Origin: Brevundimonas sp. SGAir0440
GTDB taxonomy: Bacteria > Pseudomonadota > Alphaproteobacteria > Caulobacterales > Caulobacteraceae
Direction: 5' to 3'
Assembly (NCBI RefSeq): GCF_005484585.1
Contig: NZ_CP039435.1
Coordinates: 682,001 to 746,000 of the forward strand
Length of the DNA stretch: 64,000 bases
A program made the position numbers and the translations under genes. Under the pieces are notes generated by a model. The model was not told where the DNA came from, did not search any database, and saw only the letters and a list, made by a program, of their open reading frames with translations. This document shows, one piece after another, positions 10,799 to 24,810 of this stretch; position 1 is the stretch's first letter; every line of letters starts with the position of its first letter.

Positions 10799-10842
10799 TA
10801 CATTTTCCGCTCGAAGGAGCGGCGGATCGCAAATGGTGCCGC

Positions 10843-11265: not shown

Positions 11266-11287
11266 AAGCGTCCGCAAACGCGCTCAT

Positions 11288-11302: not shown

Positions 11303-11361
11303 TCGTTTAGTCGGAGTCATGGGTCCGGCCTCTGGGTCGGTTGGCGCTGCCGGAGATCGAG

Positions 11362-11583: not shown

Positions 11584-11586
11584 GCC

Positions 11587-11925
11587 GTGGGCTACAAGAA
11601 GCCGGAGAACCGGGGCCTCGGCCATCACCTCAGCGTGGCCCCGCACATGACGGTGTCGCAGCTGCGCCGCGACCACTGGACGATCTCGATTCGGTGCCCG
11701 CGATGCCATCTGGATTGCTGGGTGGACCTGTCGGTCGTCATTCGACTGTCGGGGCCACAGGTGAAACTCTGGAACCGCTGGGCGCGCTGCCGGCGCTACG
11801 GATGCCCCGGCCGGATGGTCTTCCTGTTCACGCCGCCGGGCGAGCCGAAGGGCGTCTTCTGGCCCATGCACGACTCGCCCGAGGCGCGCGTGAAGGCGAC
11901 GATCAGCGACGATCCGGAGCTGTGA
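11587..11925 (+). CDS. Small protein with four-cysteine zinc-ribbon-like pattern
   Basis: 112 residues from GTG 11587, three bases after the previous stop. It has CPRCHLDC near residues 37-44 and CRRYGC near 88-93, a spacing that suggests a zinc ribbon, with aromatic residues between (VKLWNRWARC). Such small zinc proteins are frequent in alphaproteobacterial phages; the role is unknown. It is followed after 4 bp by another cysteine-pair protein. Confidence 0.6.
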   Translation: MGYKKPENRGLGHHLSVAPHMTVSQLRRDHWTISIRCPRCHLDCWVDLSVVIRLSGPQVKLWNRWARCRRYGCPGRMVFLFTPPGEPKGVFWPMHDSPEARVKATISDDPEL

Positions 11926-11929
11926 CGCC

Positions 11930-12199
11930 GTGCTGAACTTCTATCGCGACGACACGACGCCCGACGACATCCGACGCGGCGATCAGTGCGCCCTGGTCTG
12001 CCAGTGCGGCAGCAGCGTCATCCCGGCCTGGGCGAAGCTGCCCCAAGCGCAGCGCTTCACGCCTCTGCGGGACATGCGCGCGAGGATGGTCTGCAAGCGA
12101 TGCGGCAATCGGCGGCCGCAGATCGTCATCCGAGGACACCATGGCAGCGGGGGCCAACTGACGGAGTTATGGCGATGGCCGCCGGCGAACCGGACCTGA
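11930..12199 (+). CDS. Small protein with two cysteine pairs (putative zinc ribbon)
   Basis: 89 residues from GTG 11930. CQCG near residue 25 and CKRCGNRRPQIVI near 55-67 form a likely zinc-binding knuckle pair; the rest is basic. Arrangement and size resemble the preceding gene, so the two may work together, for instance as DNA- or RNA-binding early proteins. The next small gene starts inside its 3' end (12169). No specific function can be assigned. Confidence 0.55.
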   Translation: MLNFYRDDTTPDDIRRGDQCALVCQCGSSVIPAWAKLPQAQRFTPLRDMRARMVCKRCGNRRPQIVIRGHHGSGGQLTELWRWPPANRT

Positions 12200-12318
12200 C
12201 GCTGGAGGAGATCGACGCCATCACTGGACTTAAGATCAGAGGCGCCGAACGCACTCTTCAGGAATACCCATCACGTTATCCGCAGGTTGCCGAGAACGCA
12301 GCGCAAGCGGCCTGGTAA
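12169..12318 (+). CDS. 49-residue protein resembling the C-terminus of a tyrosine recombinase
   Basis: Starts at ATG 12169 after ACGGAG and overlaps the preceding gene by 31 bp in another frame. The sequence LTLEEIDAITGLKIRGAERTLQEY followed by AENAAQAA matches the C-terminal pattern of phage integrases (eIaaITGHs....ildtY...R..lA..Ai). The catalytic histidine position (GHs) reads GLK, so it cannot be a working active site. It is either a remnant of a former integrase or a small protein made from that helix. A terminator hairpin follows. The similarity is by eye. Confidence 0.5.
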   Translation: MAMAAGEPDLTLEEIDAITGLKIRGAERTLQEYPSRYPQVAENAAQAAW

Positions 12319-12369
12319 ACAATCTGGAAAGTGAGAGTTTCACGGTTCTGCTGGTCTTTCAAGCATGGA

Positions 12370-12393
12370 AAAGCCCCCGGTGAAGGGGGCTTT
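12370..12393. terminator. Bidirectional terminator between convergent genes
   Basis: AAAGCCCCC (12370-12378) pairs with GGGGGCTTT (12385-12393) around a 6-base loop, with A-runs before and T-runs after. It sits between the forward cluster ending at 12318 and the reverse dioxygenase gene ending at 12417, and can serve both strands. Confidence 0.85.
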
Positions 12394-12416
12394 GGGGTCT
12401 CTTGTTGTCGTGATCT

Positions 12417-13601
12417 TTAAGCGTTGATCTCGCCGTACTGCGAGGTAAATGATACCCCGTTCACCTCAACTTGTTTATGGTTGAGAGACCTCATGTAAAA
12501 GGGGCTGTGCGATTTCGCCGTGTAGTGGGTGACGAGGCTTTTTCTGGTCACGCCAGGGTTAGTAATCTTTGACCCACCGTGCGCCAGGTCGGCATGCCAG
12601 ACCAGCACGTCGCCAGCGTGGCCCAGGAACTTAGATCGCTTCTGACCTAGCTGTTCGGCGTCACGGTGCAGGCTATCAAGGAAATCTTCGTGCTGGCCCG
12701 GGGAGTGTTCCATCCACTTGCTGATGCCGCCGAAGACGTAGTCCGGCGAGCGATGGCTACCGACGTAATATTCCAGTTCGCCCGTGCCTTCGCTGATGTC
12801 TTCCAGCGCCAGCCAGGTAGCGGCCATGGACATCGGATTCCCGTCCACCTTCACGTATGCCGTGTCCTTATGGATCGGCTGTTGAGAGCCCATGGTGAAG
12901 CAGAGCTGCTGGAACGCGCGCGCGCGCTCCTCGAAGATGGCTTCAAGGAATTTGACGACTCGGGGCGCTGACGTGGCATACCTCGCGGAGGACAGCCGCA
13001 AGTGCGGGTCGAGGAGCTTGGTCGAGCCGTACCGATACTGGTTGTCCACTGGAACGACACGCAACAGTCCGATGTCAACCGAGTAGGACTCAATCTTCAG
13101 TCCGTCGACCTTGCCTGCCCAAACGTCTTCGATGTCCCGGTTGAGCCGGTCGAGTAAATCTTTGTCCACAGCCCCAGGGATGATGATGTAGCCATCGCGC
13201 TCGAAATCTACGAGCTGCTGCGCCAGCGCGTCATCAACCTCGCCCCTCGATATCTTCCCATCGAGAACATCGCGCCAGCCGTCCCGATCGATCCACATGC
13301 CGCCGTATAGGCTATGCGTTGCCCGCTCGGGCGCGGAGTCGGCCCCGGTAGGCCTCAAAACCAAGTCGTCGCCCCCTACTCGAAGCGCCATTTTACGCGC
13401 CAGCCCACGCGGGAAGTTGGAAATGTCGATTGAGTACCCAACGTTTCTCTGCAAATCAGAACGATAGAGGTCAGCCAGAACCGAGCCTACATATCGACCG
13501 TCGATCTCAACGCGAATCTCCGCAGGCGTACCGCCGCCCGGGGTTTCGGCCCAACCTGAAATTATGTTATCAGTCCATACGTCTACATAACCAACCGTCA
13601 T
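12417..13601 (-). CDS. Phytanoyl-CoA dioxygenase (PhyH)-family 2-oxoglutarate/Fe(II) oxygenase, cargo gene
   Basis: 394 residues from ATG 13601, chosen over 13655 because GGAGGGG lies just upstream. Residues 1-85 form a separate beta-rich domain (GYVDVWTDNIISGWAETP, then VEIDGRYVGSVLADLYRSDL) of a type also seen beside glycosyl- and sulfotransferases. Residues about 125-370 are the PhyH fold with iron ligands H244 and D246 (QPIHKDTAYV) and H341 (HADLAHGG), and R353 for 2-oxoglutarate. All key residues are present. The substrate is unknown. It is flanked by its own terminator, lies beside the lysis genes, and is less GC-rich than its neighbours, which fits a lysogenic-conversion cargo gene. 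Confidence 0.85.
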   Translation of the reverse strand: MTVGYVDVWTDNIISGWAETPGGGTPAEIRVEIDGRYVGSVLADLYRSDLQRNVGYSIDISNFPRGLARKMALRVGGDDLVLRPTGADSAPERATHSLYGGMWIDRDGWRDVLDGKISRGEVDDALAQQLVDFERDGYIIIPGAVDKDLLDRLNRDIEDVWAGKVDGLKIESYSVDIGLLRVVPVDNQYRYGSTKLLDPHLRLSSARYATSAPRVVKFLEAIFEERARAFQQLCFTMGSQQPIHKDTAYVKVDGNPMSMAATWLALEDISEGTGELEYYVGSHRSPDYVFGGISKWMEHSPGQHEDFLDSLHRDAEQLGQKRSKFLGHAGDVLVWHADLAHGGSKITNPGVTRKSLVTHYTAKSHSPFYMRSLNHKQVEVNGVSFTSQYGEINA

Positions 13602-13915
13602 TTGCCCCTCCGTGATTTTGGGGGGGTATCTGCCCAAAAGTTGCGGCCTGGTCAAGCGGGGCGTGTGTCAGCAGCAAAACGCGTCATTGGCAAGTTGTTG
13701 CCGGCGCTAGTTCTCGGCATCTGACCGCTTGTATAGCGCTCCGGCGGAGCTCTTTTGTATAAGTCGCTTGCCTTGATAGTAGAGCAAAGGCTCGACGCTG
13801 GACATAGCGGAACGGCGGGTCAGACCCCACGTTGGTTCACCATGACCATCTTAGCCAACCTTCTCATCAGTGCTGACAGTCTCCTTAAGATATTGACGCA
13901 CCGAGAGCGCTTCCT
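13602..13915 (-). other. Intergenic region upstream of dioxygenase gene
   Basis: About 314 bases with no plausible frame, more AT-rich than the surroundings. It should contain the promoter of the dioxygenase gene (reverse strand) and the end of the lysis transcript. No clear terminator or operator was seen. Confidence 0.4.
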
Positions 13916-14230
13916 CTAGCCAGGTCGCGGCGGCGCAGCTGCTGCTGGACATCGGAATGGCAAGTCCGCCCCGCTCGACATGGCCCAGCGGCAAATCCGC
14001 CCCACCGCCGCCCAGCCTCGATCACCCCAAGCCTCGACGGCGTCGTCATGCGCCGTCAGCGCCGCGTCGCTGTCCAGATCGGCCGGTGACAGCTGCGGCT
14101 TGGCCTCAACCCGCAGATCGGCACCGGATGGGAAGATCGGCGTCACGTGTTCCCTGCTGGCGCAGGATGACGCAGCCACGGCGAATGCGGCGATCAGAAG
14201 GGCGGGTGTCAGGCAGCGTAGCGGTCGCAT
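13916..14230 (-). CDS. Rz1-like outer-membrane spanin lipoprotein
   Basis: 104 residues. An N-terminal signal (LRCLTPALLIAAFAVAASSC) ends at a lipobox-like ASSC with cysteine 23, followed by a proline-containing soluble part ending in AAAAPPRPG. It begins inside the Rz-like gene in another frame, the classic nested Rz/Rz1 layout. Rz1 and Rz join to fuse inner and outer membranes in the last step of phage lysis. It is the last gene of the lysis cassette. Confidence 0.7.
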   Translation of the reverse strand: MRPLRCLTPALLIAAFAVAASSCASREHVTPIFPSGADLRVEAKPQLSPADLDSDAALTAHDDAVEAWGDRGWAAVGRICRWAMSSGADLPFRCPAAAAPPRPG

Positions 14231-14477
14231 TGGCGCGTTCCTCTTTGCGGTCGTTGATGGTGGTGATGTCGTTCAGGCGCTCTTCGGCCGCCGTTTCCTT
14301 GGCGCCGCCGTCGATGACCAGGACGCGGGTATTCGCTTCGACGCGCTTGACCTCGGACCGGGGCGCGCACGTATTCAGGACCACGACAGCCGCGACGATC
14401 AGGACGCCCAGGACGAAGGCGAGGGCGAACAGGGGCGACACGCCCCAGGACGCCAAGCGGCGGATCAGGGCGCTCAC
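14106..14477 (-). CDS. Rz-like inner-membrane spanin
   Basis: 123 residues from GTG 14477, overlapping the endolysin stop (GTGA). One N-terminal membrane anchor (PLFALAFVLGVLIVAAVVVL) is followed by a charged helical periplasmic part (AKETAAEERLNDITTINDRKEERANATATL), as expected for an i-spanin. The Rz1-like gene overlaps its last 125 bp in a different frame. The pairing, order and size make the assignment good despite low sequence conservation in this family. Confidence 0.75.
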   Translation of the reverse strand: MSALIRRLASWGVSPLFALAFVLGVLIVAAVVVLNTCAPRSEVKRVEANTRVLVIDGGAKETAAEERLNDITTINDRKEERANATATLPDTRPSDRRIRRGCVILRQQGTRDADLPIRCRSAG

Positions 14478-15094
14478 AGCCCGACGACCTTCTTGGCTGC
14501 CGTCGTCGCGGCGATGCGCGCGTCCAGGCCGTTGGTGCCGCCATTCACCTTCAGCGTCACGCCTTTCACGTCATCTCGCAGCGCCGGAGCGATGCAACCG
14601 TGCTTGACGAAGAAGTTGGCGGCAGCTCTGGCGGACGCGACTGGGTCAGTCCGCAGGGTGTCCGGATCATGCTCGTGCCAGGCCTCGCGATAGTTGGCCC
14701 GGCCGGTGATTTGCTTCTCGCCGCCACCCCTGAACCGCCAGCCGTCGCCCGGCTCCGTGTTGCCCAGGTTCTTGCGGCCCCACTCGCCTCCGTAGATGAT
14801 ATTGGCGATCGCGTTCTGGTGGGCTGGCCGGCCGGGTGCGCGGCCGAACTTACGGGCATCGGCCTCGCTGATCCGGTGCCGGCCGAACATCTTCAGCAGG
14901 CCGTCGACCGAATAGTTCAGGTTCTCTTCGCGAGTGGTGAACCCGGCGCTCTCGACGAACGTCTGACCTAGCCAGTGGGCCAGGACCAGGCCGGAGAATC
15001 CATTTGCAGCCGCTGCCGCCTCCAACGCCTCGCGCGTGCCAGCCGTCGCCTTGGGCGCAAACGTGCGGAACCTGTCAGCCGGTATCAGGCTCAT
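14474..15094 (-). CDS. Phage endolysin, GH19 chitinase-like muramidase
   Basis: 206 residues. It shows the GH19/lysozyme pattern: GQTFVESAGF with catalytic glutamate near residue 48, then REENLNYSVDGLLKMFGRHR, then the substrate-binding GGGEKQITGRANY near 122-134. There is no signal peptide, so export would need a holin; several small membrane proteins upstream on the same strand could do this. It degrades peptidoglycan at the end of the lytic cycle. The gene is intact and leads directly into the spanin pair. Confidence 0.88.
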   Translation of the reverse strand: MSLIPADRFRTFAPKATAGTREALEAAAAANGFSGLVLAHWLGQTFVESAGFTTREENLNYSVDGLLKMFGRHRISEADARKFGRAPGRPAHQNAIANIIYGGEWGRKNLGNTEPGDGWRFRGGGEKQITGRANYREAWHEHDPDTLRTDPVASARAAANFFVKHGCIAPALRDDVKGVTLKVNGGTNGLDARIAATTAAKKVVGL

Positions 15095-15109
15095 GGTCAG
15101 TCTCCATTG

Positions 15110-15346
15110 ATGGAAATTTGCGGCAGCGCTCGAACCGGTCAGCCCGAGCGAAGTTTGGTCGAAATGCTGTTTGCTGCCTGTGCCTTGAGAGACGAAGCCC
15201 GCCGCTATCGGGAGCTAAAGCGGGCGATCAACTGCCCGCGCACGCTCGCCTTGCTGGACCAGATGGCGACAGATCTTGAGGGCAAGGCGGAAGTGATCGA
15301 GGCGAATGCCGCGCGACAAGGACGCGCTGAAAACAGCGGGCGATAA
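15110..15346 (+). CDS. Small helical hypothetical protein
   Basis: 78 residues from ATG 15110. ACALRDEARRYRELKRAINCPRTLALLDQMATDLEGKAEVIEA resembles small alphaproteobacterial proteins made of two amphipathic helices (…ARRYRELA…LL.MA.DLE..A). No function is known for that group. It is divergent from the endolysin, with 15 bp between the starts, so the two control regions overlap. Confidence 0.5.
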   Translation: MEICGSARTGQPERSLVEMLFAACALRDEARRYRELKRAINCPRTLALLDQMATDLEGKAEVIEANAARQGRAENSGR

Positions 15347-15473
15347 GGGGTAGGTCGAACAGGTTGCAGCTCGTGCTGGACTGCGGCAGGCGGTTCGGCC
15401 GATGGCGACATCGGTCGGGCCGCCAACCAGGACAGGGATTCGACAGGATCACCCCTCGCAGCTAAGACGCGGT

Positions 15474-15683
15474 GTGTATCGCTTCCTGACAATCGATATC
15501 ACCGGCCGCCGCGCACGGATTGACACGCTTGCCGTCGATGACGACGACGCCGTGCGTCAGGGCGAACTCTATTTCGAAAGTGACGTGACGCTGACTGCGC
15601 TGGAGGTGCAGACATCTTCCGGAACCACACTTCGGCACTTCGCGAAAGCGATGGCGGGGTCATCCCAAGCCTCAGCTGGTTAG
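15474..15683 (+). CDS. Small hypothetical protein
   Basis: 69 residues if started at GTG 15474 (VYRFLTIDITGRRARIDTL); a longer start at 15402 exists. Pattern: beta hairpin, then DDDDAVRQGELYF helix, then LTALEVQTSSGTTLRHF. This resembles small alphaproteobacterial proteins with an N-terminal strand and a DD..A..A helix. Its 3' end overlaps the end of the convergent membrane-protein gene at 15672. Function unknown. Confidence 0.4.
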   Translation: MYRFLTIDITGRRARIDTLAVDDDDAVRQGELYFESDVTLTALEVQTSSGTTLRHFAKAMAGSSQASAG

Positions 15684-16052
15684 ACCATTGAACCAGATCG
15701 TCAGCGCCGCCGCGGCGACCAACACCATAGCCACGCAGATCACCGTCACCTTCAATCCGTGATGCGGCTGGTCTGACAACGGCCGATCCAGCAGGCCCGC
15801 CGGCGGCAGTTTCATCGCCGCCTCGGCCGCCCAGTCCTCGCGCCGGATCAGCGTAAACAGCCGGATCGCCATCACGCTCCACGGCGGCGGGCTGCGGTCG
15901 CGCTGCACGAAGTCCAAAACGATCATCGAGAAAGCAAGCGAACAGAGGGCACCCAAGGGCAGCAGCGGCGACATATGCTCGACTCTGACGAGGCACCCCG
16001 GAAACACGGTCGTCGCCCCCCTGACCATCAGGAAGATGGCGATCAGGAACAC
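15672..16052 (-). CDS. Membrane protein, possible holin-region component
   Basis: 126 residues from GTG 16052 with about three membrane segments (VFLIAIFLMVRG; LLPLGALCSLAFSMIVLDFV; VTVICVAMVLVAAAALTIWF). The frame upstream continues without interruption to the TAA at 16068-16070, which ends the 39-residue membrane protein in the same frame. The two may therefore be one gene split by a stop codon. Position between tail fibre and endolysin suggests a lysis role. Start uncertain; no ribosome site seen before the GTG. Confidence 0.5.
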   Translation of the reverse strand: MFLIAIFLMVRGATTVFPGCLVRVEHMSPLLPLGALCSLAFSMIVLDFVQRDRSPPPWSVMAIRLFTLIRREDWAAEAAMKLPPAGLLDRPLSDQPHHGLKVTVICVAMVLVAAAALTIWFNGLTS

Positions 16053-16067
16053 GACTAGCCGGAGGAA

Positions 16068-16187
16068 TTAGCTGCCCGAAATCCGGGTGTGATAGGTCGG
16101 CCCGAGCAACCGGAACACGACCGTCATCACCCCACCTGCCGACAGGAACAGCATCCCCGTCAGAACGACCAATGCGTGATGCGTCAT
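16068..16187 (-). CDS. 39-residue single-span membrane protein
   Basis: Begins ATG 16187, with AGGAGG eight bases upstream, overlapping the stop of the holin-like gene (ATGA). Sequence MTHHALVVLTGMLFLSAGGV gives one membrane span and a short basic tail ending RISGS. Its stop TAA is followed in the same frame by five sense codons and then the start of the next membrane protein, suggesting a nonsense mutation or a leaky stop. Small holin or antiholin is possible. Confidence 0.5.
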   Translation of the reverse strand: MTHHALVVLTGMLFLSAGGVMTVVFRLLGPTYHTRISGS

Positions 16188-16525
16188 GACGACGCCTCCT
16201 TGCTTTCCACGGCCGCCCGAAGGCCGGCCTTGATGATGCGCCCCACCAGATTGAAGAAGCCGCGCGGGTCGTTGGCGGCCATCCAGCCGATCGCCAGGGC
16301 CACGACGCGGAAGTCCAGCACCTTGACCAAGGCGACGATCGACGGCGTCGCCGCCTCGGCCGCCACCGGCCCGGCGAAGACGCCGATGCACAACGACAGC
16401 CAGGCCCGCACCCGCGCCTCGCGCGTCGCGCCCTTAGACCCATAGGCCGGGATCATGCCGAGGCCGCCCGCGATCAGGCCGCCACACAGGCCCCAGAACA
16501 GCGGCAGTTCACGCGGGTCGAACAT
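16184..16525 (-). CDS. Holin-like membrane protein
   Basis: 113 residues, beginning MFDPRELPLFWGLCGGLIAGGLGM, then a basic loop (SKGATREARVRAW), a second span (LSLCIGVFAGPVAAEAA), a third hydrophobic stretch (VVALAIGWMAAND) and a basic tail. Size, topology and place in the lysis region fit a phage holin, which would release the signal-less endolysin. The family cannot be named with certainty by eye. Confidence 0.6.
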   Translation of the reverse strand: MFDPRELPLFWGLCGGLIAGGLGMIPAYGSKGATREARVRAWLSLCIGVFAGPVAAEAATPSIVALVKVLDFRVVALAIGWMAANDPRGFFNLVGRIIKAGLRAAVESKEASS

Positions 16526-16608
16526 CCGCCCCTCCGATAGTCAGGCCGTGTGGAACAGCCGTCGGGCGGCTTGTGGAACCGGGTGGGTCCGCGAGGCGCT
16601 TGCCCCTC

Positions 16609-16707
16609 ATGGACATGACCACGATGCTTCTTCTGATGCTGATCGCCGCGACGGTGATTGGCGCCATGGCGCTCAACGCTCGCCAGCACACAGACGGCGA
16701 GGCCTGA
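16609..16707 (+). CDS. 32-residue membrane peptide, forward strand
   Basis: MDMTTMLLLMLIAATVIGAMALNARQHTDGEA: one membrane span and a short polar tail. It is opposite to the surrounding late genes and followed 2 bp later by another small membrane ORF. Reality uncertain; too short for statistical support. Confidence 0.35.
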   Translation: MDMTTMLLLMLIAATVIGAMALNARQHTDGEA

Positions 16708-16709
16708 TT

Positions 16710-16868
16710 ATGGAATTGGTCTTGCTTTTTATCGGCGCGCTGGTGCTGGCGGGAGCTTTGTTCGCGGCGTCCAGCCGAATAGAGGGCTGGAGCAAGCCAA
16801 ACCACTTCACCGACAAAGACGCGGACGGCGAACCAGACGAGCCGAACGGGCCGGCGAAAGGCCTTTAG
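16710..16868 (+). CDS. 52-residue membrane protein, forward strand
   Basis: Begins MELVLLFIGALVLAGALFAASS (one membrane span), then a hydrophilic, acidic tail (KPNHFTDKDADGEPDEPN). It starts just after the 32-residue ORF, with GCGAGG upstream, and its stop overlaps the end of the convergent gene at 16865. The contrast between anchor and charged tail looks genuine. Could be a holin partner or a membrane decoy. Confidence 0.45.
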   Translation: MELVLLFIGALVLAGALFAASSRIEGWSKPNHFTDKDADGEPDEPNGPAKGL

Positions 16869-17224
16869 GCCTCGGCCGGTGTAACAGGGGCCGGCTGGGC
16901 ATCATCGGCGGGAGGCGCGGGCTGCAAGGCGGCGACGCGGGTTTGGGCCGCCGTCAGGCCGCCTTCGAACGACGCGACGATGCGCTGGAGCATCTGTTTC
17001 GTGCCTTCTGCTCCAGGCTGGCCCAACGGGCGGGCCAGATTGTCGGCGATGGCTTCCACCGCGGCCTTGAGCAGGGCTAAGAACGCCTGCCCCTTCGTGC
17101 CGGTCAGCAGATCCACGGCGGCCTGCGCGGACGGGAGGCAGGCTGCTTTCGCCAGAGCAGCAGCTTCGGCCATCATGGCTTCGGCCTCAGCCAGCTTTTC
17201 GGCGTCGGTTTTTTCGGTCGCCAT
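16865..17224 (-). CDS. Alanine-rich helical hypothetical protein
   Basis: 119 residues: MATEKTDAEKLAEAEAMMAEAAALAKAAC, then AFLALLKAAVEAIADNLARPLG, and a proline/alanine-rich C-terminus (QPAPPADDAQPAPVTPAEA). It is mostly helical, soluble and coiled-coil-prone. It lies between two small membrane-protein genes on the late strand. No function recognised. Confidence 0.6.
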   Translation of the reverse strand: MATEKTDAEKLAEAEAMMAEAAALAKAACLPSAQAAVDLLTGTKGQAFLALLKAAVEAIADNLARPLGQPGAEGTKQMLQRIVASFEGGLTAAQTRVAALQPAPPADDAQPAPVTPAEA

Positions 17225-17226
17225 GA

Positions 17227-17367
17227 TCAGTCCTCACCACGCGGGCGGGCCGGCGACTGCGGGCCGCGCCGGCGGATCGAACCGGCCGATTTCGGCTTGC
17301 GGGTCAGGGCGTAGACGGCGAAGCAGACGACAGCGACGACGAACAGGACAGCGAGGATCGCATCCAT
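17227..17367 (-). CDS. 46-residue single-span membrane protein
   Basis: Begins at ATG 17367, with AAGGAG about six bases upstream. MDAILAVLFVVAVVCFAVYAL is a membrane span, followed by a strongly basic tail rich in arginine and proline. The strong ribosome site and the 2-bp gap to the next gene support it. The N-out/basic-in arrangement fits a pinholin-like or regulatory lysis peptide. Confidence 0.6.
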   Translation of the reverse strand: MDAILAVLFVVAVVCFAVYALTRKPKSAGSIRRRGPQSPARPRGED

Positions 17368-17390
17368 GGCAGGCTCCTTGGGTTGAGGGG

Positions 17391-19157
17391 TTATACGTTG
17401 TCGGAGAACTCGACGTTGACGTAGACGAGGTCCACGTCGCCGCCCTTGGCCACCAGTCCGACGAACAGGGCGGTCTTGGTTTGGCCGGCCGCCAGCGTCG
17501 TGTTGAACACGGGCGTGAAGCCGGTTGAGGGATAGCTGATCGACGTGTCGCCAGAGACGCGGGACCAGGTGCAGGTCGCGCCCGAGGTTCCCGTGTAGCA
17601 GGTGACGATAACGTCATTCAGGGCGGTGCTGATCGGCCCAGCGCCTGTGCGCGACCGGCTGATCTGCGTCGGCGTCACCTTGGCCCAGAAGAGCGGGGCA
17701 GGAAGGGGGCCGTAGGCGCCCGACTGGTCCTGCCAGAATCCTGCGTTGGCCTTCGTCATCGAGCCCAAGCCAATGTTGCTGGGGCCAGCCCAATGGATCA
17801 AATTGTCTGGGCCGAAAGGCGGGCCATTCGCGATCACCCGGCGCGTAGAGCCCCAAACGCCCTGCTGGGTCTGTGACGCGGTGTCGATGACGGTGTTCTC
17901 GCCGAAATAGACTTGCTCGGCCTCGAGTGCGATGAAGTTGCCAAAGGCGGAAGACTGCAGGCCAATCCTTGTCGGCTTGCCGCCAGCGGCGTCCGCAACC
18001 TTGTACCAACTCGCGATGGCGTGCTGGTTCTCCAGATCGATGATGGCGAGGGACTGGTCGGTGACGGTTGCCGAAATCTCCGCGTCCGTCGTCATGTCGT
18101 TGAACGGGGCTGCGACCGTCCCGGTATTGACCATGACCATTCCGGCGTCTGAATAGCCGCCCGATCCGGCGTAGGCGTAAATATCGGCCCGTGCGCGGAT
18201 CGCATTGGCCGGAGCCACGCTGCCGATGCTCTTGCGTTGTTCGCCAGCACCCGCGATCTCGGCTCCGTTGGCTATGGACTGACCGGGGCCGTCGACCTGC
18301 GCCGCCGCGTCGCTGAAGTAGCGAAGACGCACGCCCATCCAGCCGCCGTTCCGCTGGCTCAACAGTGAGGCGCCGACGAAGTAAGTTTCTCCGCCGAAAA
18401 CTGGAAAAGGCGCACTGAGAGCGGACCAGTTCGCGGCATTCGCTGTGATCACCCGTCCGCGAACCGGGTTCGCCACGCCGACCGCGCCGGCATTCAGCAG
18501 CCAGCCCCTGGCGCCATCCGCCAGTCCCCCGTTCGGCACGTGGTTTGGGCGAACGGCCTGTCGTGCGGAGAGCTGGTTGATGGCGTCTGCACGAGCGCCG
18601 GCTTCCGTAGCCAGCGCGATTTCCAGATCAATGACGCCTGCCTCTGCCGTTGTTGTGCGAGCCTCTACTTCCTCCAGCGCGGTTGCCGACGCCTTTCCTC
18701 GAAGGTCAACCTCGGCTTGATCCAGCCGCCCTACAGCCGCCGAGACTTCGCCGTTCAGCCCCGACAGGTCGACGCTGATCTGCTGCAGGTCCTCGGCGGA
18801 CGCCTTGCCGGATTCCAGATCAATCAGGGCTTCCTGGTGATCGATCAGGGTGGCGGCGAAGGAAGCGGAGGTCTCGCTGTCCACAAAGGGCGCGGCCTCG
18901 CTCCCTGGATTGATCATCGCCAATCCAAAGTCAAAGTAGCCCGCCCCACCCGCGTCTTGAACGATGAATGCCGCACGAACTGCATTGACGGGGTGTGTGA
19001 TCGCCATCACGAACAGCGGTGCGCCCTCCGGGCCTTTCGCCACCAGAGCGGCAGCGGGCAGGGCGGCGACTGCGCCGAACAGCGCGGTCAAACGCTGGCC
19101 TTCGATCGTCTTGGACTCTGCTGGGGTCACGGCGCTCTCACGGGTATGAGCATCCAT
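17391..19157 (-). CDS. Tail fibre / tail tip (J-like C-terminal) receptor-binding protein
   Basis: 588 residues. Regions: 60-118 (FVDSETSASFAATLIDHQEALIDLE) repeated at 320-378 (FNDMTTDAEISATVTDQSLAIIDLE); a coiled coil at about 125-200; a jelly-roll-like binding module at 205-355 (VPNGGLADGARGWLLN); a DUF1983-like tip segment near 380-425 (ASWYKVADAAGGKPTRIGLQ); and a C-terminal beta domain. Such proteins bind host surface sugars or receptors. The N-terminal part that would attach it to a tail hub is missing and the first module is partial, so it seems to be the distal piece of a longer tip protein. It is the only structural gene in the element. Confidence 0.75.
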   Translation of the reverse strand: MDAHTRESAVTPAESKTIEGQRLTALFGAVAALPAAALVAKGPEGAPLFVMAITHPVNAVRAAFIVQDAGGAGYFDFGLAMINPGSEAAPFVDSETSASFAATLIDHQEALIDLESGKASAEDLQQISVDLSGLNGEVSAAVGRLDQAEVDLRGKASATALEEVEARTTTAEAGVIDLEIALATEAGARADAINQLSARQAVRPNHVPNGGLADGARGWLLNAGAVGVANPVRGRVITANAANWSALSAPFPVFGGETYFVGASLLSQRNGGWMGVRLRYFSDAAAQVDGPGQSIANGAEIAGAGEQRKSIGSVAPANAIRARADIYAYAGSGGYSDAGMVMVNTGTVAAPFNDMTTDAEISATVTDQSLAIIDLENQHAIASWYKVADAAGGKPTRIGLQSSAFGNFIALEAEQVYFGENTVIDTASQTQQGVWGSTRRVIANGPPFGPDNLIHWAGPSNIGLGSMTKANAGFWQDQSGAYGPLPAPLFWAKVTPTQISRSRTGAGPISTALNDVIVTCYTGTSGATCTWSRVSGDTSISYPSTGFTPVFNTTLAAGQTKTALFVGLVAKGGDVDLVYVNVEFSDNV

Positions 19158-19240
19158 TGTCCGCCTCGCGATGTCTACGGGTGTCGCTGCCGATCACCAG
19201 AGCCAGCCCTATGCCGCAGCGCAGACGTGGTCGGTGGCAG

Positions 19241-19274
19241 AAACGAAAACGGCCCCGCCGCGAGGAGGAGCCGT
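19241..19274 (-). terminator. Intrinsic terminator (reverse strand)
   Basis: Read on the reverse strand, ACGGCTCC pairs with GGGGCCGT across a 10-base loop (19249-19274), followed by TTTCGTTT (19241-19248). It ends the early reverse transcript before the tail fibre gene, so the late genes need their own promoter in 19158-19240. Confidence 0.65.
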
Positions 19275-19352
19275 CTGATGGGCAAATCGCCCGTTTGCCT
19301 GATGTCGCCCAAGTGAAGCCCCGCGTCAAGTTCGGACATCGCCGGCTAGAGA

Positions 19353-19835
19353 TCAGAGCTTCCCTTGAATCGCGAGGGAAGTTGCAATGACGAGCGGATA
19401 TCCGGCTCCCAGAAGGAACGCCACCATGGATGTGATGGCGCATCCTGCAGCAAACTTCCTCGACTCCTTGGCGGCTAGAGTCTCGGTATTGACCGCCCCT
19501 TCATCAACTTTGCCTTCCTCGCCAATCTGTCGCCACGTGTTGTTTGCCGCTTCGTAGCGCCCTTCGCTTTCATCATGTCGCCAAGCAGCACCCAGCGCGC
19601 CCATCGCCATAAAGCCCGCAGCGACACCAAGTAGGAACGGCCACATAGACGGCAGCAGGCGGTAAAGCGCGAGCGCGTTTTCGGTCGGCGCGACAATAGC
19701 TGCGCAGCCAAGCAGCGCGGCTCCATTGCCGAGGCAGAGGGTGGTTACCCACTTCTTCGAGACTTCGTCGGCATGCGACGCTGCGCTGGCTATGTTGGCC
19801 TCCAGCAGCTTCTTGTAACCCTCTGTCTCGGTCAT
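19353..19835 (-). CDS. Membrane protein of unknown function
   Basis: 160 residues with a soluble helical N-terminus (TEGYKKLLEANIASAASHADEVSKKW) and three membrane spans (TTLCLGNGAALLGCAAIV; PFLLGVAAGFMAMGALGAAW; ITSMVAFLLGAGYPLVIATSLA). Between spans 2 and 3 lies a charged helical segment. This layout resembles small alphaproteobacterial membrane proteins of unknown role. In a phage element, superinfection exclusion is possible but unsupported. It is the last gene of the reverse early cluster. Confidence 0.65.
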   Translation of the reverse strand: MTETEGYKKLLEANIASAASHADEVSKKWVTTLCLGNGAALLGCAAIVAPTENALALYRLLPSMWPFLLGVAAGFMAMGALGAAWRHDESEGRYEAANNTWRQIGEEGKVDEGAVNTETLAAKESRKFAAGCAITSMVAFLLGAGYPLVIATSLAIQGKL

Positions 19836-19838
19836 CTT

Positions 19839-20375
19839 TTACCCCAGCCCATACACAATAGCGCAGGTGTCAAGCGCAAACGTCAAGTCGTCCTTAGTCC
19901 GGCTACGGGCGCGGCTTCCGGACACTAGTTCGTTGATCATGAAGCCTTGGCCCGCAATCAGGTTAAGGGCTGTGATGGACCGGAGGGCGGGATGTTCTCG
20001 CGGAAGGAGGGGGAGCATTCCTTTAGCCCCAGGCTTCGTGTCTACGCCGCAGATCATCCGATAGATGCACATAATCCGATCGATCGCCTCGGCACGCTTA
20101 TCGCTCCAGTTTTCACCGCCGTGAGGGACGATCTCTTTCGACGGGTCCAACTGGCGCGGCGTCATCTCTTTCTCCGGGTCCATCTTCTCATAGTCGATGC
20201 GGAAGCGTTGACCGGCGTCATGTTGCGTCTTTGTGATCGCCTTGCGTGCGAACAGGAAGTCCAAACCATCTTTCGCGATACGCGCCACACCAGCCGCACC
20301 CTCGATCTCGGATTGGTCGATGATCACGCCGCGTAGCGCTTCCAAGCTGCGCCGTTCGTCCAGCGCTGCGTCCAC
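19839..20375 (-). CDS. DUF6456-like phage protein, possible DNA-binding regulator
   Basis: 178 residues from GTG 20375. DFLFARKAITKTQHDAGQRFRIDYE, then GGENWSDKRAEAIDRIMCIYRMICG, and the C-terminal ALRSITALNLIAGQGFMINELV follow the pattern of DUF6456 and related alphaproteobacterial phage proteins (…AGeRyR.dy…ALdlva..g.sl..la). Proteins of this type are thought to act as DNA-binding regulators; the match here is by eye. In-frame codons upstream to the preceding TAA (EIDVRLTADQ) also look coding, so a non-standard upstream start is possible. Confidence 0.6.
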   Translation of the reverse strand: MDAALDERRSLEALRGVIIDQSEIEGAAGVARIAKDGLDFLFARKAITKTQHDAGQRFRIDYEKMDPEKEMTPRQLDPSKEIVPHGGENWSDKRAEAIDRIMCIYRMICGVDTKPGAKGMLPLLPREHPALRSITALNLIAGQGFMINELVSGSRARSRTKDDLTFALDTCAIVYGLG

Positions 20376-20405
20376 CTGGTCCGCAGTCAGCCTGACGTCG
20401 ATCTC

Positions 20406-20669
20406 TTACTGAAGCGCTTCCAGCATCCGATGGCCCAGCCGCTGATCTGCCAGGTCGTCCGAGGCAATCCGGTCTTCCGCAAGCCGCATGCGGTACTGCT
20501 GGTTCTCGGTCAGCCTGACGCCGCGGATCGTCACCGGCGCGGTGTTGTCATTGACGTGGTTGTCGTTGGCGCCGACGTTCCCCGGCGTGGGGCGCTTCCA
20601 TGATCCCGGCGCCGACGGCTGGGCATAGCGTTTCCGGTCGCGCTTCTTCGCACGGTCAGATTTGCTCAT
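20406..20669 (-). CDS. Small basic hypothetical protein
   Basis: 87 residues. Very basic N-terminus (MSKSDRAKKRDRKRYAQ), an asparagine-rich linker (NVGANDNHVNDNTAPV), and a C-terminal helix (TENQQYRMRLAEDRIASDDLADQRLGHRMLEAL). It could bind nucleic acid. It starts inside the preceding 39-residue ORF and is part of the overlapped reverse early cluster. Confidence 0.5.
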   Translation of the reverse strand: MSKSDRAKKRDRKRYAQPSAPGSWKRPTPGNVGANDNHVNDNTAPVTIRGVRLTENQQYRMRLAEDRIASDDLADQRLGHRMLEALQ

Positions 20670-20775
20670 CGCGAGCCTCCATGGCTCGAAGCTGCGCCAT
20701 CGCCGCGTTAGCCAAGGCGATGTCGCCCCAATAATTGGCGCGGATTACGATGAGGACGAGTTCAGCTTCGGTCAT
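20656..20775 (-). CDS. 39-residue hypothetical protein
   Basis: MTEAELVLIVIRANYWGDIALANAAMAQLRAMEARDEQI. Its start overlaps the stop of the upstream gene (ATGA) and its end overlaps the next start, so it fits the coupled chain of small genes. Function unknown; the regular overlaps are the main support. Confidence 0.45.
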   Translation of the reverse strand: MTEAELVLIVIRANYWGDIALANAAMAQLRAMEARDEQI

Positions 20776-20966
20776 TCGATCCAGCCTCGGCCGCGAAGGT
20801 GATCGCGGTTCATGATCGGACGCTCGTCCTCAGCTACGCGATACGGCTCCGATAACAGGCCATAGGTCAGCCCGATGATGGTTTCGATCTGGCGATCGGT
20901 GCGGCCGGCGGTGCGCAGGCGCTTGACCTCGTCGGCTTGGTTCTGGGTGATGCGGGCGATGCTCAT
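20772..20966 (-). CDS. Small helix-turn-helix-like protein
   Basis: 64 residues. ITQNQADEVKRLRTAGRTDRQIETIIGLTYGLL reads as a helix-turn-helix of the resolvase/Sigma-70 region 4 sort (…L...G.sd..I....gl....). It may be an early regulator. Both ends overlap neighbours as ATGA. Confidence 0.5.
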   Translation of the reverse strand: MSIARITQNQADEVKRLRTAGRTDRQIETIIGLTYGLLSEPYRVAEDERPIMNRDHLRGRGWIE

Positions 20967-21172
20967 ACCCAGGTCGCCCGGCTCGGGCTAAACGACAGGG
21001 CGGAAGGCGGCATTGGCGGCCGGTCGAAGTTTGAACGATTGTCTGCGAGAAGCGGCACGGTTTCGATCCATCGGCGCACGTCCGCTGCCCAAGCAACGAT
21101 CTCGCCGTATCTGTCGATGATTTTGACGCTGACCTTCAGGCTGGCGTGAACCTCCTTCGCTTTCGCCAGCAC
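20963..21172 (-). CDS. Small hypothetical protein
   Basis: 69 residues from GTG 21172 (VLAKAKEVHASLKVSVKIIDRYGEIVAWAADVRRWIETVPLL). In-frame codons upstream (LTATFAPTAAE) also look coding and would need a CTG start overlapping the stop of the 26-residue ORF. A DRYGEIVAWAADVRRW helix is the main feature. It opens or nearly opens the reverse early cluster. Confidence 0.45.
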   Translation of the reverse strand: MLAKAKEVHASLKVSVKIIDRYGEIVAWAADVRRWIETVPLLADNRSNFDRPPMPPSALSFSPSRATWV

Positions 21173-21192
21173 TTCGGCGGCCGTGGGCGCGA

Positions 21193-21576
21193 ATGTGGCC
21201 GTCAGGAGATCTCGTTGCAGGTCTTAGCGACCGCCGCTGGTGGCAGCTGCAGTTGCTCCAGCGCCTCTATCAGCGCCTCCATGTAGAACTCCGGGCTGTG
21301 GGGCCGAACGTTGCGACCAACGCCGCCACGCTGCGAGACCGAAGCTACCCGTCAGACTGGCGCGCGATGCTGGACGGCTTCCTGTCAGTTCACGACGGCG
21401 GCCGGGATGCGGTGCGCGCCGCTTATGACGCGCGGCTTCTGGCAAGCGATCTAGTCGACGTCGTCCTCGATCCTCGTGACGGAATCAAGCAGCCGGTCCT
21501 GTTGTTCCGCACCATTCACGGCACCGGCATCCAGGCGCGACCCGGCGAGGTCTGGAAGTGGGAGAAGGTCAAATGA
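21193..21576 (+). CDS. Hypothetical protein, first gene of forward early operon
   Basis: 127 residues from ATG 21193; a shorter start at ATG 21369 (MLDGFLSVHDGGRDAV) is equally plausible and would avoid overlap with reverse-strand genes. The C-terminal half (AVRAAYDARLLASDLVDVVLDPRDGIKQPVLLF, then GEVWKWEKVK) looks genuine. Its stop overlaps the next start (ATGA), so it is coupled to the S24-like gene. No domain recognised. Confidence 0.5.
   Translation: MWPSGDLVAGLSDRRWWQLQLLQRLYQRLHVELRAVGPNVATNAATLRDRSYPSDWRAMLDGFLSVHDGGRDAVRAAYDARLLASDLVDVVLDPRDGIKQPVLLFRTIHGTGIQARPGEVWKWEKVK
21202..21282 (-). CDS. 26-residue ORF, possible leader of reverse early cluster
   Basis: MEALIEALEQLQLPPAAVAKTCNEIS from ATG 21282, with GGAG six bases upstream. 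The helix-like protein character and good ribosome site suggest it is translated, just ahead of the 21172 gene. It lies over the 5' part of the forward 21193 ORF, so only one of the two can be fully right. Confidence 0.35.
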   Translation of the reverse strand: MEALIEALEQLQLPPAAVAKTCNEIS

Positions 21577-21920
21577 CCCCGGCCGTGTTCGAACACCCCG
21601 GCGTCCGCGCGTTCGAAGTCCGCGGCGAAGGCATGGCGCCGACGGTGCGGGCCGGCGACTTCCTGATGGTTCGCCACGCCCACGGCTATGACGGGGAGGG
21701 CGTCTACATCCTCGACTTCATCGGCGACGGCGGCGCGCCCTATCGGGCTGAACGCGTCCCGGTCATGGGCCGGCGCGAGGTCAGGATCCACCACGACAAC
21801 CCGGCCTACAGCCGTCACGTCATCGGCCTGGACGAGTTCAACAACGTCTGCCGCGCCAAGGTCGTGGCCGAGCTGCGGATGAAGGTGTCGCGCTGCGAGC
21901 TGAAGGAGTTGGCGGCATGA
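21573..21920 (+). CDS. S24/LexA-like domain protein without catalytic residues or HTH
   Basis: 115 residues from ATG 21573. The fold pattern of phage-repressor/LexA C-terminal domains is clear: FEVRGEGMAPTVRAGDFLMV, then GVYILDF, then VRIHHDNPAYSRHVI. The catalytic serine of GDSM/GNSM reads glycine (GEGM, residue 20), and the lysine expected in the YvVKrl segment is absent (PYRAERVPV). No DNA-binding N-terminus exists. So it cannot self-cleave; it might act as a binding partner or decoy for LexA/CI-type repressors, which is speculation. Start and stop overlap neighbours as ATGA. Confidence 0.75.
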   Translation: MTPAVFEHPGVRAFEVRGEGMAPTVRAGDFLMVRHAHGYDGEGVYILDFIGDGGAPYRAERVPVMGRREVRIHHDNPAYSRHVIGLDEFNNVCRAKVVAELRMKVSRCELKELAA

Positions 21921-22243
21921 GACTTGTAGCGATCATTCGAGTTGCTTGGCTCAGATACCGAATCCGGCGCAACACCGCCGCTGCTGCTTCACGGATGTCG
22001 AAGCTGGGCGACGTCATGGAACTGAAGGCCATGATCGGGACGCGCTGGGAATACCGAGCAGTCGATGCTGCGGTCCGGATCGTGCATGAAACGCTTGAAG
22101 ACCAGCGCTTCAATGGGCCCTGGCGGCCTGATCATCGCCGGGTAGCCCTACAAGTCATCCGCGAGCTGTTCGACGCGACTTTCCCTCCGGGGTTCGTCAG
22201 CGACGTGTTCGAGATGGTCGAGATGATGGAGCCTGCTCGATGA
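21917..22243 (+). CDS. Hypothetical protein in forward early operon
   Basis: 108 residues. Basic, hydrophobic N-terminus (RLVAIIRVAWLRYRIRRNTAAAASRM), then helices TRWEYRAVDAAVRIVHETLEDQRF and RRVALQVIRELFDATFPPGFVSDVFEMVEMM. Soluble, function unknown. It overlaps both neighbours by 4 bp. Confidence 0.6.
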   Translation: MRLVAIIRVAWLRYRIRRNTAAAASRMSKLGDVMELKAMIGTRWEYRAVDAAVRIVHETLEDQRFNGPWRPDHRRVALQVIRELFDATFPPGFVSDVFEMVEMMEPAR

Positions 22244-22347
22244 TCATCCATCGCTTGCGTGAAATCCAGAAGTCGCCCCATCAGACGACCCATCAGCAGC
22301 TTGATGCCCTGTTTCCGGCAGAGATCGTGGAGGAAGTGCTGCGATGA
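22240..22347 (+). CDS. 35-residue hypothetical protein
   Basis: MIIHRLREIQKSPHQTTHQQ then LDALFPAEIVEEVLR. Start and stop both overlap neighbouring genes as ATGA, which strongly suggests translation in the chain. Function unknown. Confidence 0.5.
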   Translation: MIIHRLREIQKSPHQTTHQQLDALFPAEIVEEVLR

Positions 22348-22586
22348 CCAGGGCCGCCAACTGCAACGAGCCGCGCCGAAAGAAGGCCTGTGACCTCCCA
22401 CCTGGCTCCAAGCTGGCCTACACCGTCGACGAGGCCGGCTCAGCCATGGGCGTCAGCAGGACCACCGTCTTCGACATGATCCGAAACGGCGAGGTCATTG
22501 CTAAAAAGCTGCGTGGTCGCACGATCATCACCCGCGATGAACTGCAGCGGGTCATCGACGAGGCGCCACCGGCTCGCGCGGCTTAA
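22344..22586 (+). CDS. Excisionase-like helix-turn-helix protein
   Basis: 80 residues. LAYTVDEAGSAMGVSRTTVFDMIRNGEVIAKKLRGRTIITRDELQRVID is a typical excisionase/HTH_17 winged-helix pattern (yTv.Ea...lgvs..tv..li..G.l.a.k.grr.lI....l...i). As last gene of the forward early operon, and convergent with the integrase block, it is the obvious candidate for directing excision. Direct evidence is lacking; some such proteins act only as regulators. Confidence 0.75.
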   Translation: MTRAANCNEPRRKKACDLPPGSKLAYTVDEAGSAMGVSRTTVFDMIRNGEVIAKKLRGRTIITRDELQRVIDEAPPARAA

Positions 22587-23407
22587 AGGTCGTGCAGCCC
22601 CGGGTATTGAAGCTCAAGCTCCCAGCGACGCCGATGGAATGTCGCCTGGGCGCAACCGATGCCGGCTTCAGCACAGAGCTTTATCACCTCGTCCCGATAT
22701 AGAGGGTTCATGGCAGCGCCCAGGATCACCCGTGAAACGACGCCCTGCGGAAGCGTCTTCAGCCCCTCCGGCTCGTGCATCACCGCCCGCCATTCGGCTT
22801 CATATTCCCAGACCGACGACTTCGGTAGAGCGCCTTCACCACCTTGGCGTCGCCGGTGTCGAACAGGACATCGACCACCGGCCGCTCCTGATCATAGTGG
22901 ACGGGGAGCGACGTCGTGACGACGCTCTCAGGCTCCCAGCGATTTAGCTCGATGCAGACCCCTGCATGGGCTTGCGCGTAGTGCGACCACATCAGCAGGC
23001 TATCCCACTTTTCAGACATCGAGAGCGCGCAGGTATTGCTCAGGGTCTGCTGCAGCCCGGCTTCGAGCAAATCAGTGAGCTCGCCTGTGTCTTTCATCGC
23101 GGACACTTCCTTCGCTCGTTTCCGTCGCTCCTTCCCCCGATCCGAGGCCAGACTCATAGAACGACGCTGAGAGGGCGCGCCGCCTTTGGTCAGGCCTGCC
23201 AGCGATGACTGGTGCCGGGAAGCAGTCGAACGGGTCGTTGAAGCTGAGGGGGGTGGCGAACCAGATGCGGTTCCTGATCAAGATGTCCCGAAGCTTGGCG
23301 ATGTCGTCCTGAGAGGATGCGCCCCTGCATTTGTAGAGCACAAGCGGCTCCTTCAGGACGGCGCGATCGACAAGCGCCTGCAACACACCTGAGTCGAACG
23401 TCGTCAC
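22583..23407 (-). pseudogene. DUF2971 protein gene broken by two frameshifts
   Basis: Starts at GTG 23407, overlapping the integrase stop. The pieces read in family order across three frames: ILIRNRIWFATPLSFNDPFDC (N-terminal), then CALSMSEKWDSLLMWSHYAQAHAGVCIEL (middle), then SSVWEYEAEWRAVMHEPEGL (C-terminal). The shifts fall near 23130-23160 and near 22815, the second being loss of one base in the codon before AAG TCG. DUF2971 proteins are common on mobile elements and in defence regions but their biochemistry is unclear. The disruption could be true decay or sequencing error. Confidence 0.7.
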
Positions 23408-24609
23408 GCCGGGCGCCGCATCTCGACCACCGTCGCGGATTTGGGACGGTCCAGGTAGCCCGCCCAAGCATCCATCAGCTTGATGTGCTTCTGGAAGGCA
23501 TCGCCGCGCCGGTAGGCGCGCTCCGTCTCGTCCCCGACCCTGTGCGCCAGCGCCGCCTCGGCGACGGAGTCCGCGAAGGCCGTGCATTCCTCGGCCCAAT
23601 CCCTGAAGGTCGAGCGGAAGCCGTGGACGCTGTAGGCGTCGTCACCCATGCGCTCCAGCAGCGCGGACATCGCCGCCGTCGATAGGGCCGCGCCGTCAGC
23701 CTTGGCGAAGATGAAATCCGCCTTCGGCATTTCCTCCATCGGCTCCGTCACGATCTGGACGGCGCGATCGGTCAGCGGCACCCGGTGCGCGACCTTCATC
23801 TTCATGCGGTCCGCTGGGACGTTCCAGACCTTGTTGACCAGATCCACCTCACCCGGCCGGGCGAAGATTTTCTCGCTCGTCCGGGCGGCCGTCAGGATCG
23901 TGAACTCCAGAGCGCGCGCGGCGAGCGCCGGCCGGGCGCGCAGGCGAGCCATGAAGTCGGCCGCCGCTTCATAGGGCATGGCTGGGTGATGGCCCTGTGT
24001 CAGCCGTTGGCGCTTCGGCAGCAGCAGGGACAGGTGGCCCTTCCAGCGCGCCGGGTTCTCGCCCTTGCGCAGGCCCTTGGCCTTGGCGGCGTCCAGCACC
24101 CGCTCAATCCGTCCGCGCGTGCGCGATGCGGTTTCCGGCTTCACCGACCAAATCTGCTTCAGCACGTCCAGCACGTCCTCGGTCGAGACGGCATCAACGG
24201 CGAGCGGCCGAAGAGCGGCGGCCTCGACGGTTAGGCTCTGCTTCCACTGGTAGAGGTGCTCCGCGTTCTTCCACTCCGGCGCCAACGCCTTCAGCAGATC
24301 ATCCGCCACGTCGCCGAAGGTCACGCCCTCGACCTGGGCCGCCTTCTTCGCCTCGATGGGATTGACGCCCTTAGCGACCTGGCGCCGGGCTTCCTCGGCG
24401 ATCTCTCGCGCCTCGGCCAGCGACGTGACCGCCAGACCACCAAGACCCATCTGCTTGCGCGCCCCGCGCCACTGAAACAGGAAGGTCCAGCGCTTGCCGA
24501 CGCCGCTCTTATCGACCTCCAGATACAGACCACCGCCATCGGCATGAAGGCCGGGCTGTTTCGTCGTGGTGACGAAGCGGTGTGTAAGACGGTTGGTCGG
24601 TCGCGTCAT
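23404..24609 (-). CDS. P4-type tyrosine integrase
   Basis: 401 residues. The N-terminal DUF4102 arm-binding domain (LHADGGGLYLEV, then KQMGLGGLAVTSLAEAREIAEE) is followed by a core-binding domain and a catalytic domain with R243 (AARTSEKIF), lysine near 272 (MKMKVAHRVPL), H329/R332 (HGFRSTFRDWAEE), H356 and Y366 (ETERAYRRGDAFQKHIKLMDAWAGY). All catalytic residues are present. It integrates and excises the element at the 18-bp core 183 bp upstream of its start. Two LexA-type boxes lie in its promoter. Confidence 0.93.
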   Translation of the reverse strand: MTRPTNRLTHRFVTTTKQPGLHADGGGLYLEVDKSGVGKRWTFLFQWRGARKQMGLGGLAVTSLAEAREIAEEARRQVAKGVNPIEAKKAAQVEGVTFGDVADDLLKALAPEWKNAEHLYQWKQSLTVEAAALRPLAVDAVSTEDVLDVLKQIWSVKPETASRTRGRIERVLDAAKAKGLRKGENPARWKGHLSLLLPKRQRLTQGHHPAMPYEAAADFMARLRARPALAARALEFTILTAARTSEKIFARPGEVDLVNKVWNVPADRMKMKVAHRVPLTDRAVQIVTEPMEEMPKADFIFAKADGAALSTAAMSALLERMGDDAYSVHGFRSTFRDWAEECTAFADSVAEAALAHRVGDETERAYRRGDAFQKHIKLMDAWAGYLDRPKSATVVEMRRPA

Positions 24610-24614
24610 AAGTA

Positions 24615-24629
24615 GAACGTAGCATGAAC
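24615..24629 (-). promoter_or_regulatory. LexA-type box 1 in integrase promoter
   Basis: GAAC (24615-24618), seven bases, GAAC (24626-24629): exact reverse-oriented GTTC-N7-GTTC, six bases before the integrase start codon. A repressor here would cover the ribosome-site/promoter region of the integrase gene. Confidence 0.7.
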
Positions 24630-24633
24630 TCGC

Positions 24634-24648
24634 GTTCTTGGCGCGTTC
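24634..24648 (+). promoter_or_regulatory. LexA-type box 2 in integrase promoter
   Basis: GTTC (24634-24637), seven bases, GTTC (24645-24648): a second exact box, opposite in orientation to the first and four bases from it. Two exact boxes within 34 bp make control by the host LexA or a related repressor likely. Confidence 0.75.
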
Positions 24649-24652
24649 TGCC

Positions 24653-24676
24653 TTACCCTAAAAGTTACCCTAAAAG
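24653..24676 (+). repeat. Tandem TTACCCTAAAAG repeats at right end (arm-type site candidate)
   Basis: Two perfect adjacent 12-bp copies (24653-24664 and 24665-24676), located between the integrase promoter and the right att core. A near-identical pair lies at 10777-10798 inside the left core. Likely integrase arm-binding sites; inferred from position and repetition. Confidence 0.65.
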
Positions 24677-24792
24677 CGGACGCGGCTTGAGCCGCACCAC
24701 TACGGACACTTACGGACGACCCGGTGCGCATCGTCAATGGTGGCGGGCATCTTCTGGACTGATGTGAACCCTCGCGAATACAGGTCGGTATT

Positions 24793-24810
24793 CCCTCGGC
24801 TCCACCAGGC
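24793..24810 (+). repeat. Right attachment-site core (18-bp direct repeat)
   Basis: Identical to 10709-10726 (CCCTCGGCTCCACCAGGC). The flank before it has no usable T-arm, so it is not the end of an intact RNA gene. Ordinary chromosomal genes begin about 45 bp to the right. Confidence 0.85.

Follow-up and report, generated by a model that had tools for sequence, protein, structure and literature searches.

The 64,000-nucleotide stretch of Brevundimonas sp. SGAir0440 analysed here (the window; contig NZ_CP039435.1, positions 682,001 to 746,000) contains a phage-derived element, E4, at whose right end lies a tyrosine integrase gene preceded by two opposed copies of the motif GTTC-N7-GTTC (Table 1). 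Upstream of the arm domain, no in-frame start other than the integrase ATG at 24609-24607 (reverse strand) was found. An earlier note on this DNA had placed GAAC-N7-GAAC at 24615-24629 and GTTC-N7-GTTC at 24634-24648, and both boxes are exact at those positions, with a gap of 4 bases. Its statement that the boxes start 6 bases before the start codon agrees with this ATG, and together they span 6-39 nt before it. The motif, which the note had taken for the alphaproteobacterial LexA site, equals the Caulobacter LexA motif GTTCN7GTTC given in PMC12700426, a study which worked with a lexA sidA double deletion and gives a single box for ~97% of the Caulobacter SOS promoters.

Table 1. Features of element E4 and of its integrase region (window positions)
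Feature	Position	Strand	Basis or remark
Tyrosine integrase, 401 aa	23404..24609	(-)	Arm-DNA-bind_3, Phage_int_M and Phage_integrase by Pfam and PHROGs
Proximal LexA-type box GTTCATGCTACGTTC	24615..24629	(-)	Exact GTTC-N7-GTTC, 5 nt upstream of integrase ATG
Distal opposed LexA-type box GTTCTTGGCGCGTTC	24634..24648	(+)	Exact GTTC-N7-GTTC
Two tandem 12-bp repeats TTACCCTAAAAG (+ strand letters), candidate integrase arm-type sites	24653..24676	(-)	Sequence
Phage-derived element E4, 14.1 kb	10711..24807		Attachment repeats; left end homologous to that of sister element E2; holds the integrase
Left attachment repeat CTCGGCTCCACCA of E4	10711..10723	(+)	Repeat
Right attachment repeat CTCGGCTCCACCA, copy of tRNA-Ala(CGC) 3' end	24795..24807	(+)	Repeat and tRNA
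HTH_17 excisionase-like gene, candidate directionality factor	22344..22586	(+)	Family match; homologous stretch in E2
S24/CI-like protein	21558-21920	Same as excisionase-like gene	In E4, upstream of excisionase-like gene

A search of the genome with the LexA DNA-binding family gave one match. This host protein can be aligned with a LexA structure across both its N-terminal and its S24 domain, and the alignment covers GDSM and LKR, the stretches of the catalytic dyad. The lexA promoter itself has two opposed GTTC-N7-GTTC boxes with a gap of 10 bp. Twenty further genome sites were chosen by eye from the listed matches for their A/T-rich spacers, and their genes were also named by eye; several are upstream of open reading frames (ORFs) like recA, uvrA, a DinB-type polymerase, ssb and a radical-SAM protein, and at many of the remaining sites no gene was recognised. 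The site before a second radical-SAM-type ORF (GTTCATGATACGTTC, by eye) differs from the proximal integrase box by one spacer base.

Exact single boxes are frequent: the window has 4 against 1.66 expected, a number reached by 11 of 100 shuffles, and the single-contig genome of 3.15 Mb has 114 against 58 for the reversed pattern. The opposed pair, defined as GAACN7GAAC-N0..16-GTTCN7GTTC, was present in 139 of the 390 genomes of the family, and the same pattern read backwards in 2 of the 390. The improbability that the earlier note had attributed to the two boxes is thus borne out for the opposed pair, and not for the single box. The genome of SGAir0440 holds three such pairs, one at the lexA promoter and two at the two copies of the window integrase promoter, the second copy belonging to the sister element E2.

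The upstream regions of related integrases were then compared. The first set comprised 141 upstream regions of arm-domain integrases of the genus in 116 clusters, made up of all 58 matches of one search and 83 of another (30 loci, some of them repeats of the first search, and 53 hand-picked among the matches listed). An exact GTTC-N7-GTTC within 130 nt of the arm domain was found in 12 of the 116 clusters, and because two of these (L173 and L096) have the same upstream sequence, left unmerged by the clustering, the distinct box-bearing clusters number eleven. Control spacers of 2-15 other than 7 gave 0-1, except for spacer 6, which gave 5, and permuted tetramers gave 0-4. The cluster representatives contain 13 exact boxes, 12 of them at 28-57 nt before the arm domain and one at 89, and no further exact box was found in them between -380 and +240 of the arm domain. 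Thirteen relatives in genome contigs (L058-L070, at most 51% identity) lacked an exact box in the upstream DNA read, which extended to at most 250 nt.

The wider set added 189 loci, i.e., 158 from viral contigs (the best 80 of 112 and the best 80 of 517 matches), 30 taken from the best matches of the family search and one from a Bradyrhizobium genome. Upstream DNA of at least 60 nt was available for 117 of the added loci, of which 97 were unique, and an exact box was present in 15 of the 97. Pooling with the first 31 full-length integrases yielded 146 proteins having 70 nt or more of upstream DNA, reduced to 106 by removing those at least 90% identical; an exact box within 81 nt around or before the start was found in 16 of these 106 non-redundant integrases, in a set which includes many loci where the pattern was first noticed. 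The controls were lower, since spacers of 1-20 other than 7 gave 0-4 integrases, GTTC/GAAC ranked first (16, the next 7) among the 256 tetramers with a 7-base spacer, and 200 mononucleotide shuffles gave a mean of 0.24 and a maximum of 2.

On a quick tree, the box is present in 12 of the 13 members of one clade, whose thirteenth, L420, has one mismatch, and four more boxes (L071, L333, L334 and L429) fall among the 11 members of the fork that contains the window integrase (support 82); no exact box was found in the rest of the tree. In the clade of the window integrase the box ends 3-5 nt before the ATG, and the proximal box has a similar position in L333, L334 and L429. A viral relative (L057/L331, 95-96% identical) offers no upstream DNA, because its contig ends at the integrase start. 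The box label changes 5 times on the quick tree, 4 of the changes being forced by the starred branches, and twice on a careful tree of the first 31, so the box would have been gained more than once, or gained and lost. A promoter-like pattern derived from the clade of 13 was unmatched in the window.

Caulobacter phage DMCA (PQ480021.1, host recorded as Caulobacter vibrioides CB15) was examined after the pattern had been seen. Its integrase is 46.9% identical to that of the window and 54.6% to a member of the clade of 13, and an exact box, GTTCCTCCTACGTTC, lies 10 nt before the annotated integrase ATG. This is the sole exact box in the 6.2 kb fetched, where 0.18 are expected and at least one occurred in 35 of 200 shuffles; the weight of the case is the position of the box. 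A literature search on phage DMCA found nothing; its recorded host makes a laboratory host available for testing the idea developed below.

The suggestion of the earlier note that DNA damage directly induces the integrase is supported by the motif, by the boxes of the host lexA and of its recA- and uvrA-like genes and by the recurrence before related integrases. Since some related integrases have a box at almost the same position, a LexA operator is the best explanation, and we consider it probable (about 0.83) that the two boxes are host LexA operators in the integrase promoter of a phage-derived element integrated at tRNA-Ala, and that damage derepresses int. In undamaged cells, LexA would sit on the DNA 6-39 nt ahead of the start codon, where it would block int transcription; upon DNA damage, activated RecA would trigger the self-cleavage of LexA, and Int would then be made directly, bypassing a phage repressor. 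LexA binding, repression, SOS induction and the effect on recombination are all inferred from sequence. No ribosome-binding sequence was seen in the 3-5 nt between box and ATG in the window's clade, so the int transcript may be leaderless, with its -10 element inside the box. If this model is true, the integration/excision step itself would read the damage state of the host, a LexA operator having been retained at the integrase in one clade of phage-type integrases and occurring once more in the clade of the window. A more far-reaching version is tentative: phage-type integrases of Caulobacteraceae would have been wired to LexA at the int start at least twice, and the second, opposed box of the window would copy the architecture of the lexA promoter, so that int would track LexA as tightly as lexA does and the sister elements, sharing one tRNA site, would respond in concert.

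Several observations weigh against the LexA operator. When up to one mismatch is allowed, the boxes are not clearly concentrated before the start (the two 60-nt bins preceding the domain contain 15 and 12, and two bins further upstream 11 each), and they were dropped as additional evidence. The control spacer of 6 was found in 4-5 integrases, two of which share a half-site with a real box. The smallest fork holding the four boxes of the window's clade has 7 of 11 members without a box, and the relatives L072 (64%) and L073/L425 (61%) are among the box-less, which implies that box control is not essential to this type of integrase. Twelve of the 16 boxes belong to one clade, so they are not independent, and the shuffles ignore kinship. 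Among the integrases examined, the distal box was found only in the window copy and the sister copy (genome 676136-676150), which is one event. The 83-bp identical stretch between the sister copies is not significant (permutation P 0.08), and the divergence of the copies was dropped as a sign of constraint. Finally, 8 of the 10 loci read from other genera have opposed GAAC/GTTC pairs at places other than lexA, so the pair alone is no proof of LexA.

Those eight non-lexA pairs (L101, L102, L103, L110, L112, L113, L119 and L125) include several that adjoin small secreted-looking RD-rich proteins, and another regulator using similar half-sites may act there. The pair with a 4-bp gap matched 95 stretches in viral contigs; as a sign of the same arrangement at other viral integrases these were rejected, because just two of them (L485 and L525) encode an integrase relative, with the pattern elsewhere in both. 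Similar boxes at genome 50271 and 260778 (GTTCATGCTCCGTTC) were likewise set aside, their flanks showing no integrase or repair gene recognised by eye. In the own genome, a serine-recombinase-like ORF (by eye) lies 238 nt downstream of another exact box, GTTCTTGCTTTGTTC, at L045 (genome 1552122).

Even where LexA controls int, damage alone might not cause excision, and LexA would instead gate integration, re-integration or a pool of Int awaiting a second signal; we hold this possible, though somewhat doubtful. The only exact boxes inside E4 are at 11288, 24615 and 24634, none being near the excisionase-like gene at 22344-22586, so induced Int need not mean excision, and the excision of KplE1 uses the recombination directionality factor (RDF) TorI beside IntS (PMC2951348). 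On the other hand, the excisionase-like gene may be induced otherwise, with the CI-like S24 gene upstream on the same strand. The third box of E4 (GTTCTTGTTGCGTTC, 11288-11302) is upstream of a small uncharacterised ORF (11341-11583).

A second alternative assigns the GTTC repeats to the integrase or the excisionase-like protein, as sites for accessory recombination or autorepression. Repeats 11 bp apart beside attachment DNA do resemble accessory sites. The int promoters of KplE1 which overlap attL are autoregulated (PMC2951348). The candidate arm repeats of the window adjoin the boxes, occur in the box-less L072 as well and vary between elements: many related integrases have, by eye, tandem repeats of 11-12 bp further upstream, with differing sequences such as TTAGGGTAA, TTAGGGCGG, GTAGGGACTG and others, and these look like arm sites which change with the integrase. 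GTTC-N7-GTTC, in contrast, stays constant and equals the host LexA box, which favours host LexA as the binder over Int, Xis or a repressor of the element, as an argument and not as a binding result, and makes this alternative improbable. Still less credible is a repressor encoded by the element itself: E2 has a CI-like gene and E4 an S24-like gene, yet the two elements show nucleotide similarity (E up to 1e-6) only at the left end, in the HTH_17 stretch and in the region of int while the boxes are identical, and the same box before integrases of 44-64% protein identity also argues against it. That the boxes are chance matches without function is very nearly dismissed, since single boxes are frequent in the genome but their recurrence in 16 of 106 integrases compares with 0.24 by shuffling, and the backwards pair is found in 2 of 390 genomes.

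LexA control of a recombinase gene has precedents in integrons, whose intI genes have LexA sites upstream, some overlapping the -10 element, with two tandem sites in 40 sequences; the survey of 15 LexA motifs before 1,103 intI regions found the E. coli-type site only (PMC3108266). The intI of Vibrio superintegrons and mobile integrons resembles the present case as a tyrosine recombinase gene with LexA sites upstream, whereas here the site is the alpha-type GTTC-N7-GTTC, the integrase is of the arm-domain phage type and the boxes are opposed. An integron integrase was rejected for the window gene, as it encodes an Arm-DNA-bind_3 phage integrase with attachment sites from tRNA-Ala (attI and cassettes were not searched for). 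KplE1 intS, whose promoter overlaps attL, is described as repressed by its own product and the RDF (PMC2951348). The window resembles it in that the DNA upstream of int contains an attachment repeat of tRNA type, 186-198 nt upstream of the integrase ATG, with the candidate arm repeats between the two, and differs in the added host LexA sites. The usual view is that phages detect damage with repressors of their own, or by way of LexA sites located at genes of the lytic switch. Phages co-opting host LexA at antirepressor, co-repressor or lytic genes are described in PMC9437464, and GIL01, CTX and 186 are reported to use host LexA for induction; they share with E4 the host LexA as putative damage sensor, and differ in that the sites here are before the integrase itself. 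The own lexA promoter also has two opposed GTTC-N7-GTTC boxes, with a gap of 10 bp against 4 bp at the integrase. The literature searched, which lay outside subscription papers and supplements, gave no account of an alphaproteobacterial phage integrase controlled by LexA, and PMC12700426 does not use the word "integrase" in its main text. That integrases can be under SOS control is known from integrons, and what is new here is its predicted alphaproteobacterial, phage-type version.

E4 belongs to a row of insertions. The tRNA-Ala(CGC) gene is at genome 640714-640789, copies of CTCGGCTCCACCA follow at genome 658814, 676297, 692711 and 706795, with an inverted one at 679813, and the region from genome 640714 to 706807 (window up to 24807) is read as a tRNA-Ala(CGC) hotspot of four elements in a row with copies of the repeat between them, the window integrase forming the right end of the fourth, E4. 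The sister element E2 occupies genome 658814-676309; its integrase is 30.5 kb from that of the window, the integrase regions have 92% DNA identity and the 34 bp of the boxes are identical. In the nucleotide self-comparison, E2 and E4 have in common a 107-bp left end (88%), a 190-bp HTH_17 stretch (88%) and the integrase region, and nothing else. The products encoded in E4 include an endolysin, a CI-like S24 protein and an HTH_17 protein, and E2 carries a CI-like gene. Among the ten E4 proteins scanned, no structural phage family was matched except for the tail-fibre match of the endolysin, which makes E4 a small phage-derived element whose completeness as a phage is not shown. A megablast search of plasmids left the int region unmatched.

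GDSM is the usual stretch of S24-type proteins; the S24/CI-like protein of E4 has GEGM in its place, so that the serine seems missing, and no DNA-binding domain was found in it. Judged by eye, E1 contains its own integrase-like ORF as well as a tape-measure-like one. A perfect 1408-bp inverted repeat is present at genome 679813-681220 and 691316-692723 (window 9316-10723), the window copy holding a serine-recombinase-like ORF (9466-10569, by eye), and type I restriction-like ORFs (3000-5586, by eye) lie between the copies; the segment flanked by the repeats is possibly invertible. Elsewhere in the window, a cobalamin riboswitch (55133-55341, 75.4 bits) and a terC RNA (37487-37574, 43.3 bits) were found.
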